DNA from: a virus
Direction: 5' to 3' (one strand)
IMG/VR virus record: IMGVR_UViG_3300009285_002527
Coordinates: 1 to 27,651 of that record
Length of the DNA stretch: 27,651 nt
Shown here: positions 1 through 20,201 of the stretch, in pieces
How positions within the stretch are numbered: position 1 is the first letter of the stretch
Layout of the letters: each line of letters begins with the position of its first letter
The notes under the pieces: generated by a model
What the model saw: only the letters and a program-made list of their open reading frames with translations
The model's database searches: none
Told to the model about the DNA's origin: nothing
Program-made: the position numbers and the translations under genes

Positions 1-1507
1 GCAGCAAATCCGCGCGGGCGGGAGATAGATTAACGGTCAAGTTGATGATAGCCGCCTCGCGCTGGCGCTGGTGTTGGGCTAGCAGAATTTCCTTTAAGAT
101 GGTTTCATAGTTTTGCCAGCGCAGACGTTGGTAAAAGGGGGCCAAACCTTTGGCGCTGGTATTGACCAAAACCAAGCCTTCCAACTCGGGGTGGGCATCG
201 ACATACTGTTCAACCCAGCAATTCCCACTACAGACAACCTTACCATTGCGCCTGGTGAAGAAGCTATCGTTGGGAACCTTGAAGCACCAAACCAATCCGT
301 TATAGGCCTCTATGCTAATCGTCCCACCCATGCAGTGGAACAACTCACGCTTGGTTAGGTTCAGTCGCTCCTGCCCGGGGCGATATTCAGAAATGGTTGC
401 ACTATAGCCGTGCTGGATACAAGCTGCTTGGAGTTGGTTATTCAGCAGGGGTTTAGGCTTAAGGTAAAGTGCCTTGGCAGTACTTGCACCCTGTAGGATT
501 GTTCCATCACCATAAATCAACGCATCAAGGAACACCTCAAACTGGCGGGAGGAAAGCTTATTAACCCAGGCAGGAAGCTCATCCCTGGATGGTACCAGCT
601 CTCGGATCCTGTCTGCGCTGCTCTCAAGGATATGGATTACCCCGGCAGGTTTACCCAACCCAAAATTTGTTATGCGCTCGGGGCGAACTGTATACGAATA
701 ATCAATATACTCATAACAGAGCGCCTTGATAATCGGCTCAATTTTATCAACGGCTTGGTAGATGTTCGGATAGTGGTACTTGCTGGCGTAGCATCCATCG
801 GTCAGGAAAATTCCCGCAACGAACAACAGCGCATCCGAGATTGGGTATTCACTCTGATCCTCAAAGTTTCCACAGACTGGCACCGTGATGCGTTCCTTAG
901 TGCTGGCTTCTTCAGCAGTAAAAACCTGCCAGCCGTGCTGTGTCGGCTGCCTATCCCACGAATAAAACCGATGCCCAGGTGTAACCGCAAACGACACCCG
1001 CCTGTTGTTGGCCACATAAAGCGGCCCCTCGTAGTGTCGAGTAATTACATCAGTTGGTTGTTGCCATTGGAGGAATCCGGTGGCAAAGTTCTTTGTCAAC
1101 AATTCATCGGTTGGCTCGAAGTCTTCGATTGATTTCCAGCCATCTTTGGTCAGGAACTCGGTAGCTTCATCGTGACACTCATGGTTGCCGATCATATAAT
1201 TCAATCTGCCGCCCTTGGCGACCAACCTAGCGGCAGGCTCAATCAACTCCACTCGGCAGCGCTCGGCATCTTTCATCAATCGCATACCTTCGGTCTGCCT
1301 GGGTTTATTCTCCTTCCAATGACTCACCACCCCGCAGTCCATCATGTCGCCACCGAAAGTCAGTGTATCAGGCTTGAAATCAGCCGTAAACCTGAAAGCC
1401 GCCTCGATGGCCTTCTGGTCATGAAGCGGCTTCAGATGTCCACCCTCGCGTTCGTAGCCGTGGTGGGCGTCGAAAAGGTTGACAAAGCGAGACTCAGATT
1501 TTGGCAT
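1..1507 (-). CDS. Calcineurin-like metallophosphoesterase interrupted by an intein (3' end outside window)
   Basis: One open frame of 502 codons runs from ATG at 1507 to the window edge with no stop. Residues 1-110 look like a calcineurin-like phosphoesterase: FDAHHG (D13, H15), GGDMMD (D54, D57) and GNHE (N108, H109) match the first three metal-binding motifs of that fold. An intein occupies residues 111-429. The host protein resumes at C430 with WVEQYVDAHPELEG, the type of sequence that normally follows GNHE in phage phosphoesterases. The C-terminal GH/GHxH motifs expected in the family are not seen in the roughly 70 residues left before the edge. An AAGGGGG ribosome binding site lies 10 nt before the ATG; an AAGG also abuts the ATG but is too close. 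The gene is set apart from the late operon by its own promoter. Phage enzymes of this family act on nucleic acid or phosphoester substrates; the substrate here is unknown. Confidence 0.9.
   Translation of the reverse strand, partial: MPKSESRFVNLFDAHHGYEREGGHLKPLHDQKAIEAAFRFTADFKPDTLTFGGDMMDCGVVSHWKENKPRQTEGMRLMKDAERCRVELIEPAARLVAKGGRLNYMIGNHECHDEATEFLTKDGWKSIEDFEPTDELLTKNFATGFLQWQQPTDVITRHYEGPLYVANNRRVSFAVTPGHRFYSWDRQPTQHGWQVFTAEEASTKERITVPVCGNFEDQSEYPISDALLFVAGIFLTDGCYASKYHYPNIYQAVDKIEPIIKALCYEYIDYSYTVRPERITNFGLGKPAGVIHILESSADRIRELVPSRDELPAWVNKLSSRQFEVFLDALIYGDGTILQGASTAKALYLKPKPLLNNQLQAACIQHGYSATISEYRPGQERLNLTKRELFHCMGGTISIEAYNGLVWCFKVPNDSFFTRRNGKVVCSGNCWVEQYVDAHPELEGLVLVNTSAKGLAPFYQRLRWQNYETILKEILLAQHQRQREAAIINLTVNLSPARADLL
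221..1177 (-). mobile_element. Intein with LAGLIDADG-type homing endonuclease (319 aa)
   Basis: Codons 111-429 of the phosphoesterase frame carry a full set of intein blocks. Block A starts with C111 and continues ATEFLTKDGWKSIEDF, a typical N-terminal splicing motif. Block B is SFAVTPGHRF, with the conserved T176 and H179. Two dodecapeptide-like motifs follow, FVAGIFLTDG (229-238, D237) and FLDALIYGDG (326-335, D334), matching LAGLIDADG homing endonuclease helices and acidic residues. Block F is LVWCFKVPNDSFFTRRNGK, and block G is VVCSGN followed by the +1 residue C430. The length fits a Hint splicing domain plus a compact endonuclease. The penultimate residue is Gly instead of the usual His, a variant found in a minority of inteins. 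Splicing would join GNHE directly to CWVEQY. Boundaries are precise because Cys1, Asn-last and Cys+1 are all visible. Confidence 0.95.
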
Positions 1508-1514
1508 CCTTGAA

Positions 1515-1553
1515 AATCCCCCTTCAGGGAATATAGGCTTTAACCGGGGGATT
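1515..1553 (-). promoter_or_regulatory. Hairpin spanning the promoter and hiding the RBS
   Basis: The minus-strand arms AATCCCCC (1553-1546) and GGGGGATT (1522-1515) are perfectly complementary over 8 bp with a 23-nt loop. The 3' arm overlaps the AAGGGGG ribosome binding site. Read-through RNA from the late operon would contain both arms. RNA started at the promoter inside the hairpin (about 1523) would contain only the 3' arm. The stem is followed by TTTTC, so a weak terminator role is an alternative. Confidence 0.6.
1530..1535 (-). promoter_or_regulatory. -10 box of phosphoesterase gene promoter
   Basis: On the minus strand this reads TATATT, matching TATAAT at five of six positions, with the optimal 17-bp spacing from TTGACA. 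The expected transcription start is near 1523-1524, about 16 nt before the ATG at 1507. That start falls just before the 3' arm of a hairpin that contains the ribosome binding site. Confidence 0.8.
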
Positions 1554-1558
1554 GTCAA
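1553..1558 (-). promoter_or_regulatory. -35 box of phosphoesterase gene promoter
   Basis: On the minus strand this reads TTGACA, a perfect sigma70 -35 hexamer. It lies 17 bp upstream of the TATATT at 1535-1530. It sits immediately after the stop codon (1561-1559) of the 1364-aa gene, in the only spacer between that gene and the phosphoesterase gene. Confidence 0.8.
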
Positions 1559-4500
1559 CTATTGACGCCGGGGTGGCATCGGCGAGAGCCGTTGGAGTTC
1601 GCGTTCGACGTAGGTGCTGCGCTTACCCGGTTGTTTGGGTGCGTTGATATAGAGGCTGAATTTGTGTCGCAAAGGTTGAAGCTGCTGGTTTTGTTCGGCA
1701 GCGAAGGTCAAGGCAGCCAAGAGTTGGGCGTTGTTTTCGTCGGCGATTTGACCGTATTCGGCAGCTCGGAGCGCTTCAGAATCTTTGATAGCTTGGTTGA
1801 TAAAATCTTCGGCTTCCTTGGATTCGAGCTGCAGGAGCTTGGTCACCAAGGGCTTGGCGGATTCGTATTTCTGAGCAGCGGTATCCTGGGCCATTTGTTG
1901 ACGACCCAAGGCTTCGGCACGGGCCGCGCCTGCAAGCTGCATCTTCTCGGCATTCTTGCCGCGAACCAGCCCACCAAGCATGAAGCGTTTGGCGACATTT
2001 GCTACGGTATCAGTAAGACCCTCACCTTCGGTAGCAGCGCGACCCACAACGAACGCACCGGGGGTGTTCTGAGCAATGTAGCTGGCAGTTGTTTGGGCGT
2101 TGCGGGCGGCGGATTGATTGGGCTGGCGAATGTTGCGGCCGGTGCGCCAATCGGATCCAGTTAGCAAGGATCCGGGGATTGTAACAAGTGGCGTAAGCAT
2201 GCCGACGTTAGACTCTCTAAACTGCTGCTTGGAGGCTTCCCATTCGCGGCCGGGGGTGGTTTTATCCTGGACCACCCGAAGCGCTCGATTGGGCAGCCCC
2301 TCGGTTCCGGTCATTCGCATGGCCGAGGTGATAGGATCCATGAAGCCAACATAGAGATAATCGTTATTGCCTGCACCCCACGGTAGGTTGATATGTAGCT
2401 GGTTGCGTTCGTTGTCGGTGAGACGATCCTCGGCGCCGGGGGTGATGGTGTTGTTGTACAGAGTAGTTGCCATCATAGGACCAACCATACGAGTCCATGC
2501 ACGGCCAGCCACCTTAGCGCCTGTGGCAAAGCTATCGTCAGGGCCTGTGACCAGGCCTGGGATCAACGACTGCAAGTTTCTAGCATAGAAAGTATAGAAC
2601 GGAATGAACAATCCCCGGAACCACTTCTCCTCGGTCGGCGACAGATCGGAGTAGTCGATCATGATCTTGCGGGTGATACGACCCGCTTTGTCGGGAGCTT
2701 GACCACGTTCGAGGTTAAGCATGAACTCGCCCAGCCGAGGGACGGTCTCTAAGTATCCGCGAATCATGTCCATTTTGCTGATAGCGCCTGCACCAATGGT
2801 CATTACCGCCCTGCCGAATGGCGAGCTATGGCCCTTGAGCATGCGGATTTTAGGATCGTTGTGCAGGCTGGCGCCCAACTCAGAGGTGGCAGCGCCAGAA
2901 CCGATGTTGACTTCTTGGGCCAGCTGGGCGGTATAGTAGAGGGCGCGGTCGGCAGGGGATAGACTCTTGGGATCTACGCCTGAAGTGAATAGCTTAGCGG
3001 CCTTGGCAGCAGATTGGCCCGAAGTGCCGAGACCTTTACCTAGCATGGCACCAAAGATTGCCCCACCGGCTCCGCCTGCCAAGGCACCCTTCCAACCCTG
3101 TTCGCCTTGCTGGTCGGCAGAGGCTGCGCCTGTGAGGGCACCAATTGCGCCGCCAGTGACAGCACCAGTGAAAGGACCACCGTAGGTGGTATCAGCAGCC
3201 TTTAGTGGATTCCAACCTTCGTCAAAACTCAGCAATCTCCAGTTGTCGCCGAGGAAGTTGTTGATCGTAAACGACCCCCAGATGCCTCGGAGGATAGTGC
3301 CCTTGAGCCTGGAGGTAACACGCTGCGCAATACGAAGTGCTTCAGAGGAAGTGTCAGTATGAGCTAACATTCGCTGCGCAATGACCTTCGGCACGAAGCC
3401 AAACTGATCGTTGTACCTGAAGAATACATGATCTTCCGGCAGTAGTTGATTAGCCTTGGCTAGGGCTTTAATGTGCGTGAACACCCCGGTGCCTTCTGCT
3501 GGCACCATCTGGGCAGGCGAAAGAATCTGTTCAAGCTCCGCTGTCAATCGAGGCATGGCATCATGCTTGGCCATGATTTTCTTGACAAACATATCACGAG
3601 CGTGGTTTTCGTAGGTCTCGGCAGCATACCGAGACATGGTTTGAACGTAGTCGCGAAGAGTAGTACGCTCACCGCCTTTATGCAGCTTTTCGGAACCGCT
3701 CTTGCGATACTTACCAACTGGGGCTGCTGCGCCCAAAAAAGGCCGCTCGGGGTTGACGAAATCCAGCACGTAGTCAGGGAAGTAGTCTGGGTTGTCGAGC
3801 AGATGGTTTGGAGTTAGCCTACCGCCTTCGATGCGCAGGCGACCCAACTCATGCGCCCAGGTTTTATGGCGGCGGGCAGCTTCAAGCACACTTGGGGAGG
3901 CTTGTTGTTCGGCCAAGGCAAGGGATTCCTCGACACTTTCCAGCGGCAACCCATCCTCGATAATCTTACCTTTGCGGCCGGTCTCGGCATAACGCCGCAG
4001 CCTAACCAATGTCCAGAAGTCAGTCATGTCGGCACGGGTTTGCAGAGGTTCGACAACCGACTTGAAATCATCGAAGACCTTTGGTGCGACTTCTAGGCGC
4101 TTGTTCTTGAGGTTGATAATCTCGTCGGCTACGTCGTCGAAGCCTGCAGCTTTCAGCTTGCCCTCGGTTGTAAAGGTAGTCTTGATGGATTGCTTGATAG
4201 CGGCTGCAGCCTGCTGCAGGAACTCCCGAGGCGACCGGGCTGGTGGAACATAGCTTAGGGCATCCTGGACCTCTGGGCTGAGCTGGCTGAAGATTTCAGA
4301 CTCTAGCTTGGGGGTTTGCTTGAAGGCATGACGGCCGATTTTGTAGGCCAAGGGCATGCCAACTGCACCGAGGGCTGCACCAATTTTGGGATCCTTGTCG
4401 TAAGCTTTGGCAGTGCCTGCTCCTACGATTGCCCCTACAGTAGCCTTAGTACCAAGCGCCCCGATACGATTCATTAGCTCAGGGCTGATGGCGCCACGCT

Positions 4501-5653
4501 CAGATCCAAGCGACCCGGCAGCGATATTGAGCTTCGGTAGGGATTTAACAGCGCGGGCAGCCTGCAATCCACCAAAGCCTGCACCAGCTCCACCACCGAT
4601 TGCGGCCCATTTCTGCAGCTCTGGATCGTTGAGATCGATCCGGCCCTTGTCGAGTAGTTGTTCGGCCATCTGAGGCATGGCGTTGAGGCCAGCACCTGCG
4701 ACGGCTTGTCCAAGAACTGCTCCCGGGCCGGTTAGTTTGCCGGGTAAGGGTGCTGCCATCGACGCGCCCACAGCTCCACCCTTCGCGGCTTCGAGCATTA
4801 TTCGATTGGCGTCGAGGGGTTGAGGAGATTGGGCAGCTTGCCTGCGTTGCTGGTTGAACTCCATCAGGGCTTGGTAGGCGGCTGGAATGGCTGTGCCGAT
4901 AGCTTTAGATGGAGCAGTTGGCATGGATCCAATTAGGCCGCTGCCCAGAAAAGCTGCTCCGGTAGTGCCCATCGCGCCGGTTTTGTAGCCACCCTGTTCA
5001 CTGGGAGCGATAGTTGGATCGAGTTCAGGGGCATACCCTGAAGCTGCATGAACAGCACCTTTGATAGCTCCACCAACTGCAGGTGCAGCTTGCAGCATGC
5101 GCTTCATATACCCCATCGGCCCACCATCCTCGGGGATGGATTCGGTCAGCAGAAAACGCTTGCGGTCGAGATCAGCAGCCTTGGCAGCTTTCTGCTGCTG
5201 TTCGAGCTGGCTGTCAATCCCGGGCATGTAAGATACAGGCGAAGGGATTGGGCCAGGGCCTTGGTAGGTTGGGAGCTTGTGCTGAAGTTCAGCCTGCTGA
5301 GCCTGAGTCATATCCATGCCTAGGCCACTTGGGAAGCGCACAGGAGCCTTGGCGTTAGCGGGCAGGATCTCGCGGGTGGGTAGAAGGGTCTCGGCACCGC
5401 TTAGCAAGGGGTCGCGTAGGATCTCGGCGGCAGAGGGCTGCTTGGGTAGGGCTGAACGAAACGGTCCTGCGGCTTGGATATTAGACTGAATCCTTTCGTC
5501 GCGGTCGAGATCATCGAGGGTATCTTTGTCAAGCCATGAGCGGTATTCAGGTGCCTCAGCCAAAATGCGTCGTACAGCAGTACGATCATCCGAGCCGTAG
5601 TCAGGGTAGCGCTGTCGGACAAGCTGGGCGAAACTCTGCAGGGTATAAGCCAT
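1559..5653 (-). CDS. Large internal-virion / polyvalent-type phage protein (1364 aa)
   Basis: This is the longest gene in the window. The N-terminus (about 1-45, FAQLVRQRYPDYG) is of a type common at the start of large phage internal proteins. Residues 190-435 contain several Gly/Ala-rich hydrophobic stretches. Residues 825-875 form two glycine-zipper-like segments (GAVTGGAIGALTGAA and GALAGGAGGAIFGAM) that could insert in a membrane. Residues 995-1030 contain YSDLSPTEEKWF and PFYTFYARNL. This resembles a conserved motif of large polyvalent phage proteins, in which an acidic YSDL is followed by a PFYT-type block. The C-terminus is Gln/Glu-rich and probably coiled coil. No lytic transglycosylase or protease motif is evident. 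The start has GGAG 9-13 nt upstream. The position at the end of a run of internal-type proteins suggests DNA ejection or an injected protein (inference). Confidence 0.85.
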   Translation of the reverse strand: MAYTLQSFAQLVRQRYPDYGSDDRTAVRRILAEAPEYRSWLDKDTLDDLDRDERIQSNIQAAGPFRSALPKQPSAAEILRDPLLSGAETLLPTREILPANAKAPVRFPSGLGMDMTQAQQAELQHKLPTYQGPGPIPSPVSYMPGIDSQLEQQQKAAKAADLDRKRFLLTESIPEDGGPMGYMKRMLQAAPAVGGAIKGAVHAASGYAPELDPTIAPSEQGGYKTGAMGTTGAAFLGSGLIGSMPTAPSKAIGTAIPAAYQALMEFNQQRRQAAQSPQPLDANRIMLEAAKGGAVGASMAAPLPGKLTGPGAVLGQAVAGAGLNAMPQMAEQLLDKGRIDLNDPELQKWAAIGGGAGAGFGGLQAARAVKSLPKLNIAAGSLGSERGAISPELMNRIGALGTKATVGAIVGAGTAKAYDKDPKIGAALGAVGMPLAYKIGRHAFKQTPKLESEIFSQLSPEVQDALSYVPPARSPREFLQQAAAAIKQSIKTTFTTEGKLKAAGFDDVADEIINLKNKRLEVAPKVFDDFKSVVEPLQTRADMTDFWTLVRLRRYAETGRKGKIIEDGLPLESVEESLALAEQQASPSVLEAARRHKTWAHELGRLRIEGGRLTPNHLLDNPDYFPDYVLDFVNPERPFLGAAAPVGKYRKSGSEKLHKGGERTTLRDYVQTMSRYAAETYENHARDMFVKKIMAKHDAMPRLTAELEQILSPAQMVPAEGTGVFTHIKALAKANQLLPEDHVFFRYNDQFGFVPKVIAQRMLAHTDTSSEALRIAQRVTSRLKGTILRGIWGSFTINNFLGDNWRLLSFDEGWNPLKAADTTYGGPFTGAVTGGAIGALTGAASADQQGEQGWKGALAGGAGGAIFGAMLGKGLGTSGQSAAKAAKLFTSGVDPKSLSPADRALYYTAQLAQEVNIGSGAATSELGASLHNDPKIRMLKGHSSPFGRAVMTIGAGAISKMDMIRGYLETVPRLGEFMLNLERGQAPDKAGRITRKIMIDYSDLSPTEEKWFRGLFIPFYTFYARNLQSLIPGLVTGPDDSFATGAKVAGRAWTRMVGPMMATTLYNNTITPGAEDRLTDNERNQLHINLPWGAGNNDYLYVGFMDPITSAMRMTGTEGLPNRALRVVQDKTTPGREWEASKQQFRESNVGMLTPLVTIPGSLLTGSDWRTGRNIRQPNQSAARNAQTTASYIAQNTPGAFVVGRAATEGEGLTDTVANVAKRFMLGGLVRGKNAEKMQLAGAARAEALGRQQMAQDTAAQKYESAKPLVTKLLQLESKEAEDFINQAIKDSEALRAAEYGQIADENNAQLLAALTFAAEQNQQLQPLRHKFSLYINAPKQPGKRSTYVERELQRLSPMPPRRQ

Positions 5654-19892: not shown

Positions 19893-20201
19893 TTAGTCCT
19901 CCACGAATCGGTCGTAAAGGTCCACATATTGGGTAGTTAGCTTATCGCTGTCACTGAGCTTTTTGAGGGTATTGGCGATAAGCTTGGAGCCTTTGCTGCC
20001 AATTTCGACCTCTTTGGTCTGGCCTTCGCCCGGGGTCCATGTAACCTTCCCCCCGTCGCTAACCAGGCCAAAGTCCTTGTGGTCCTGCTCCGAGAAGCTT
20101 AGGTCTTCACGCAGCTGTCGCACGATGCGCAGGGTCGTGATATCCCCCTCGGCGGGTAGCACGTTGAGCAGCAGAATACGATCCATGATTCCTAGTTCCA
20201 T
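19893..20201 (-). CDS. Conserved phage protein of unknown function (102 aa)
   Basis: ATG at 20201 is chosen because AAGGAG lies 9 nt upstream; the longer in-frame start at 20237 lies within the leader hairpin. The protein begins MELGIMDRILLLNVLPAEGD and contains TLRIVRQLREDLSFSEQDHK and KEVEIGSKGSKLIANTLKKL. This matches a small protein seen in many tailed phages, as far as I recall, whose function is unknown. It is the first gene after the internal promoter. Confidence 0.82.
   Translation of the reverse strand: MELGIMDRILLLNVLPAEGDITTLRIVRQLREDLSFSEQDHKDFGLVSDGGKVTWTPGEGQTKEVEIGSKGSKLIANTLKKLSDSDKLTTQYVDLYDRFVED

Follow-up and report, generated by a model that had tools for sequence, protein, structure and literature searches.

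The 51-nt gap that separates two co-directional phage genes, one for a 1364-residue protein and the next for a metallophosphoesterase (MPE), holds a promoter-like sequence within an inverted repeat. We favour, at a probability of about 0.4, the reading that this gap combines a promoter specific to the MPE gene with a leaky damper on read-through RNA, similar in logic to T4 gene e and I-TevI. The sequence elements, their rarity and the gene order are read directly from the DNA; the costs of opening the Shine-Dalgarno (SD) sequence were computed by folding at 37 °C; promoter use, the start site, the effect on translation and the timing are inferred.

Gene order around the gap

The source record is a linear virus DNA of 27,651 bases, whose full length is referred to as the window. 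Genes on the minus strand run in the order portal, capsid, further late-region genes, the 1364-residue gene and the MPE gene. Family searches placed the portal, which is P22-like, in PF16510 and phrog_156, and the capsid in phrog_14242. The 1364-residue protein had no PHROG or NCBIfam match and gave only a sub-threshold Gly-zipper in Pfam, and no family of known function was assigned to it from these three libraries. No terminator-like sites were listed on the minus strand within its gene.

An in-frame TTG at 1558 was considered as the MPE start and was ruled out, because the MPE of a related phage contig, G002, begins at the position of ATG 1507. A structure model of the MPE, built without an alignment, reached a pLDDT of 34 and was set aside. 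No Rfam match was found between positions 1300 and 1800, and a tRNA search found none. Coordinates of the features are collected in Table 1.

Table 1. Features of the gap and its flanking genes, in window positions
Feature	Position	Strand	Basis
Upstream gene, 1364 aa, last before the gap	1559..5653	-	ORF list; stop TAG at 1561-1559
-35 box TTGACA, 6/6, first base adjoining the upstream stop codon	1553..1558	-	consensus match
5' arm of repeat, TTGACAATCCCCC, includes the entire -35 box	1546..1558	-	repeat search and shuffles
-10 box TATATT, 5/6, 17-nt spacer	1530..1535	-	consensus match
Predicted transcription start A1523, range 1524-1522	1522..1524	-	usual distance to the -10 box
SD AAGGGGG, 10 nt before ATG	1518..1524	-	sequence; anti-SD duplex
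3' arm of repeat, GGGGGATTTTCAA, includes 5/7 SD bases	1510..1522	-	repeat search and shuffles
MPE gene, ATG 1507, runs off the window	2..1507	-	phrog_221, 2.2e-11; start backed by alignment with G002
Intein, 319 aa, residues 111-429, inside motif GNHE/CW	221..1177	-	protein comparison

A probable promoter and an inverted repeat share the gap

TTGACA-17-TATATT was the sole 11/12 promoter match on the minus strand of the window. Shuffles of the gap reached 11/12 in 0.015% of 20,000 cases, and TTGACA-N16-18-TATAWT did not occur (0 occurrences) in 286,580 bases from 12 phage contigs fetched as relatives. Nine minus-strand sites matched at 9/12 or better, and three of these had their -10 box inside one of the six gaps that exceed 20 nt and together make up 501 of the 27,651 nt. 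By its match to the consensus, the promoter is of the sigma-70, bacterial-like type, and we consider it likely to be real.

The remaining two gap-located matches precede genes 20237 and 11422. Before gene 20237 stands TTGACA-17-TAGAGT with an extended -10 (20287-20259, minus), and the leader of this gene contains a strong hairpin, AAAGGGGCAG ... CTGCCCCACCTTT (20253-20201, minus), enclosing the ATG used here; position 20201, further downstream and preceded by AAGGAG, may be the better start. TTGACT-17-TAGGAT, also with an extended -10 (11562-11534, minus), opens the 117-nt gap before gene 11422. An antisense 11/12 promoter-like site, GTGACA-17-TATAAT (1172-1200, plus), falls within the MPE codons for NYMIGNHECH and is likely a by-product of coding.

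The inverted repeat occupies nearly the whole of the 51-nt gap. Its arms (1558-1546 and 1522-1510) form 12 of 13 possible pairs and are 23 nt apart. Within 51 nt, a repeat at least this good arose in 67 dinucleotide shuffles, 9 mononucleotide shuffles and 6 random 51-mers, out of 40,000 of each, a rate of 0.015-0.17% over the three kinds of control. In the window as a whole, a single repeat combined 13-nt arms with 12 or more pairs and a loop of 3-30 nt, where 16 whole-window shuffles averaged 0.31. The repeat is real as sequence, and both it and the promoter exceed chance.

The starting point of the analysis had been a sequence-only reading that placed TTGACA-17-TATATT in an 8-bp hairpin whose 3' arm held AAGGGGG. 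Both the promoter sequence and the stem (1553-1546 with 1522-1515) are present, and the stem proves to be the inner part of the 12/13 repeat. The 8-bp stem alone is unremarkable: the window contains 8 such stems, compared with 10.5 ± 3.2 per shuffle over 60 shuffles, and when the gap alone was shuffled 20,000 times a stem of this kind arose in 4.3% of cases. Most of the SD (5 of its 7 bases) does lie in the 13-nt 3' arm, with two bases outside it. When the last 25 nt of the leader were paired with the anti-SD, the duplex had an energy of -11.0 kcal/mol. The 5' arm is upstream of any start near 1523, a start predicted by consensus, and would thus be absent from RNA made at the promoter. An intrinsic terminator was rejected as an explanation for the repeat: none was listed at the gap, the loop is 23 nt long, and no T-run follows the stem.

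Predicted accessibility of the SD

Opening the SD in read-through RNA was computed to cost 12.3 kcal/mol for RNA beginning at 1661 and 10.05 kcal/mol for RNA beginning at 1561, and the SD region was unpaired with a mean of only 0.12-0.13 at 37 °C. The cost fell to 7.9 kcal/mol when the 5' arm was absent (RNA from 1545), and to 6.1 and 5.0 kcal/mol for short RNA from 1524 and 1523, respectively. In the short RNA, pairing with the first codons covered most of the SD (0.15-0.33 unpaired at 37 °C, with SD coordinates shifted by one base). In these predictions, the proposal that RNA from about 1523 is open holds as to direction, with the SD cost falling to 5.0-6.1 kcal/mol, and less so as to degree, since that cost is still to be paid.

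Controls that preserved the promoter boxes and SD while randomising all other positions of the gap reached the SD cost of 10.1 in 3.5-7.5% of cases (p 0.035-0.075), and against the same controls the burial of the whole initiation region was ordinary (p 0.12-0.23). Given the promoter and SD, burial of the SD is only marginally unusual. Among 24 genes, the MPE had the highest SD-block cost both in read-through RNA (10.6) and with a 17-nt leader (6.0), and its initiation region gained 6.5 on trimming of the leader to 17 nt, fourth of the 24; these ranks are rough, because starts were chosen by hand from the ORF list, four of them are TTG and some overlap. Trimming the leader freed some of the other genes in this set as much as the MPE, or more.

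The position of the 5' arm, immediately 3' of the upstream stop codon (1561-1559), bears on how far read-through RNA would be blocked. The footprint of a terminating ribosome would reach about 1549. Masking 1576-1549 in silico, as such a ribosome would, brought the SD cost down to 7.8 from 12.3 and with it most of the block; masking the inner 5' arm alone (1553-1546) gave 8.5, so the ribosome mask is at least as effective. Since a ribosome finishing the upstream gene would lie on the 5' arm, read-through RNA that is being translated may show coupling and not silencing. The predicted block would then act mainly on RNA whose upstream gene has no ribosomes on it, or in the intervals from one ribosome to the next. 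The sequence-only reading had expected read-through RNA to block translation; the unmasked cost agrees with this and the masked cost weakens it. The on/off switch as first told is partly supported overall: it is possible, and probably leaky.

Junctions in related phages

Searches for relatives were largely negative. The exact gap DNA was not found in viral_contigs, and blastn against phages found neither the gap nor the window segment 1200-2600. The MPE N-extein alone had no relatives in viral_contigs, the 1364-residue protein had none in viral_contigs, genome_contigs or phages, and the portal had none in viral_contigs and distant matches in phages. Capsid relatives at 55-58% identity were present in four records, and an MPE was present in one of 11 records carrying a capsid relative, many of which are fragments. 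No close relative of this phage was found.

Profile searches with the MPE identified G002, a second contig, L026, and a 28%-identical locus (L028) on a 163-kb contig; 601 bases of the last were read, and it was left out of the junction comparison. The same search of genome_contigs found none. G002, the nearest structural relative, is 48,008 bases long, carries a capsid relative, and has an MPE 48% identical over the first 110 residues. It shares the order of a large late gene followed by the MPE, and the stop of its 1929-residue gene overlaps the MPE start by 1 nt (TAATG); the shared order and the overlap make co-transcription plausible. The upstream gene showed no similarity to the G002 gene at the equivalent place, and no promoter-like site of 9/12 was found in 18 kb of G002. 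After the G002 MPE comes an ORF with a HECLHA stretch (L013:14052-14426), presumably SprT-like, and then ORFs on the opposite strand.

L026 is without that capsid, and its MPE is 52% identical. Directly before this MPE stands TTGGCA-17-TATAAT (11/12) with an extended -10, a match expected 4.6e-5 times per 60 nt. An apparent small stem over the L026 SD had no computed effect: opening cost 5.5 in read-through RNA versus 6.0-9.2 in short RNA (p 0.21-0.24). The hairpin was thus found in neither of the two other viral MPE contigs, both about 50% identical, G002 having no gap and L026 a promoter without a hairpin effect. Over five junctions (the window, L026, G002, P8625 and Turj99), a promoter precedes the MPE in two and a hairpin in one; for P8625 and Turj99 the comparison covered gene overlap alone, and in both the MPE overlaps the preceding gene. 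Low-identity matches to the L026 MPE (L026:1807-2574) came from 1090 phage records, among them mycobacteriophage Bxb1, and some cluster records label the same gene a recombination directionality factor (RDF).

The MPE intein

The GNHE/CW motif that holds the intein is uninterrupted in the MPEs of G002 and L026, where the intein is absent. Two stretches at MPE residues 229 and 325 are, we take it, LAGLIDADG-like motifs. The insert gave nothing significant against Pfam, NCBIfam or PDB. Its match (97% of the query, 29.7%) lies within the MPE gene of mycobacteriophage Turj99. In mycobacteriophage RDF proteins, described as putative metallophosphoesterases, 37 inteins adjoining a conserved motif are reported in PMC5050341. 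An intein akin to those of mycobacteriophage MPE/RDF proteins thus sits in a phage with a P22-like portal.

Comparison with known systems

In the accounts of T4 gene e, soc, gene 49 and I-TevI given in PMC3014915 and PMC2988022, a stem forms over the SD in long RNA from upstream, and a promoter located at the 5' strand of the stem yields RNA without that strand; the hairpin structure of gene e is described there as kept in relatives. The MPE gap is like these leaders in that the SD lies in the 3' strand of the stem and promoter RNA would lack the 5' strand. The T4 comparison made from the sequence was therefore apt as logic, and the anatomy fits, with the 5' arm upstream of the start and most of the SD in the 3' arm. 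In T4, however, late promoters (TATAAATA) accompany the silencing of early and middle read-through, whereas here the promoter is of sigma-70 type and the read-through would come from late genes; early use of this promoter would make the timing opposite to that in T4. Here, too, unlike in T4, the arm directly follows the upstream stop codon, and the short RNA is predicted not to be open. We file the gap as a variant of the T4-type logic and not as a member, because neither a phage late promoter nor conservation in the two viral contigs compared was found.

The homing endonuclease genes mobE (Aeh1) and segB (T4) are described as having a hairpin over the ribosome binding site (RBS) and a promoter in the stem (PMC2988022). 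The MPE gap shares this arrangement, and the MPE gene also carries an intein with LAGLIDADG-like motifs. The controlled frame here is the MPE host gene, though, and the endonuclease-like part lies within its intein; in Turj99, whose MPE carries a similar intein, the genes overlap and leave no gap. In the IS200 transposase leader, as reported in PMC3196728, one stem-loop hides the RBS of a gene into which outside RNA can run, and another terminates impinging transcripts. The likeness is an RBS-hiding stem before a gene exposed to incoming RNA; the difference is that no insertion sequence is present here.

Alternative explanations

Morons are phage genes that have their own promoter and terminator and are absent from relatives. 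The MPE gene resembles them in having its own promoter, by consensus match, inside a co-directional late region; no terminator was seen up to the end of the window, which falls within the gene. It might be such an accessory gene with a sigma-70-type promoter in the late operon and nothing more, the SD pairing being a consequence of fitting both the promoter and the G-rich SD within 51 nt. L026 fits this, with a promoter before the MPE and no hairpin effect, as does the marginal burial of the SD against controls keeping promoter and SD; a G-run SD easily finds partners, and control averages were 5.7-7.2 kcal/mol. The 12/13 repeat, which just 6 to 67 of 40,000 controls reached, speaks against it, and we hold this explanation to be somewhat unlikely. 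We give still less credence to the idea that the stem shuts the MPE start unless a ribosome ends the upstream gene, in which case read-through RNA would be on, and in step. The arm directly after the stop, the effect of masking 1576-1549, and the overlap of the MPE with its preceding gene in G002, P8625 and Turj99, a usual sign of coupling, agree with it, but the two codons are separated by 51 nt in this phage, and coupling would leave no need for a near-consensus promoter of the gene's own.

The repeat could also act on DNA, its two 13-nt arms serving as repressor half-sites that cover the -35 box and the start site. The near-perfect dyad over the promoter stands out more by its repeat than by the block that it would impose on RNA. 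However, the half-site had 14 matches in the window with up to three mismatches versus 11.8 expected, the 12 others all with three, and no regulator gene was seen among those genes of the fragment that were searched against family libraries; an operator appears improbable. That the arrangement is due to chance, with no function, seems to us very improbable: no relative found here shares the hairpin and the energies are not extreme, but shuffles of the gap seldom produce either the promoter or the repeat.

Proposed function of the gap

Under the reading that we favour, a promoter with a damper, a host sigma-70-type promoter would start a short-leader mRNA near 1523, beginning at the SD. In read-through RNA, the -35 and spacer sequence would pair with the SD region as the 12/13 stem and so may lower initiation. 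While a ribosome completes the upstream gene, it would occupy the 5' arm and so relieve the stem. MPE synthesis would then be set mainly by its own promoter and be partly uncoupled from the late operon.

A bolder version can be stated, which we think unlikely. A 49-nt unit bounded by the inverted repeat, and containing promoter, start and SD, would have come between genes that overlap in the nearest structural relative. The timing of T4 would be reversed, RNA from a host-type promoter being translated and late-operon RNA damped, and the intein-carrying MPE would be uncoupled from late expression. One and the same repeat would serve as the -35 box on DNA and as the anti-SD on RNA.

If the favoured reading is true, the hiding of an RBS in long RNA only, as in T4, would also occur in a phage far from T4, and the -35 box of an ordinary bacterial-type promoter would act as the blocking strand as well. 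Other phages could then be searched for such sites by a simple rule: a stop codon followed at once by an inverted repeat with a promoter in it.
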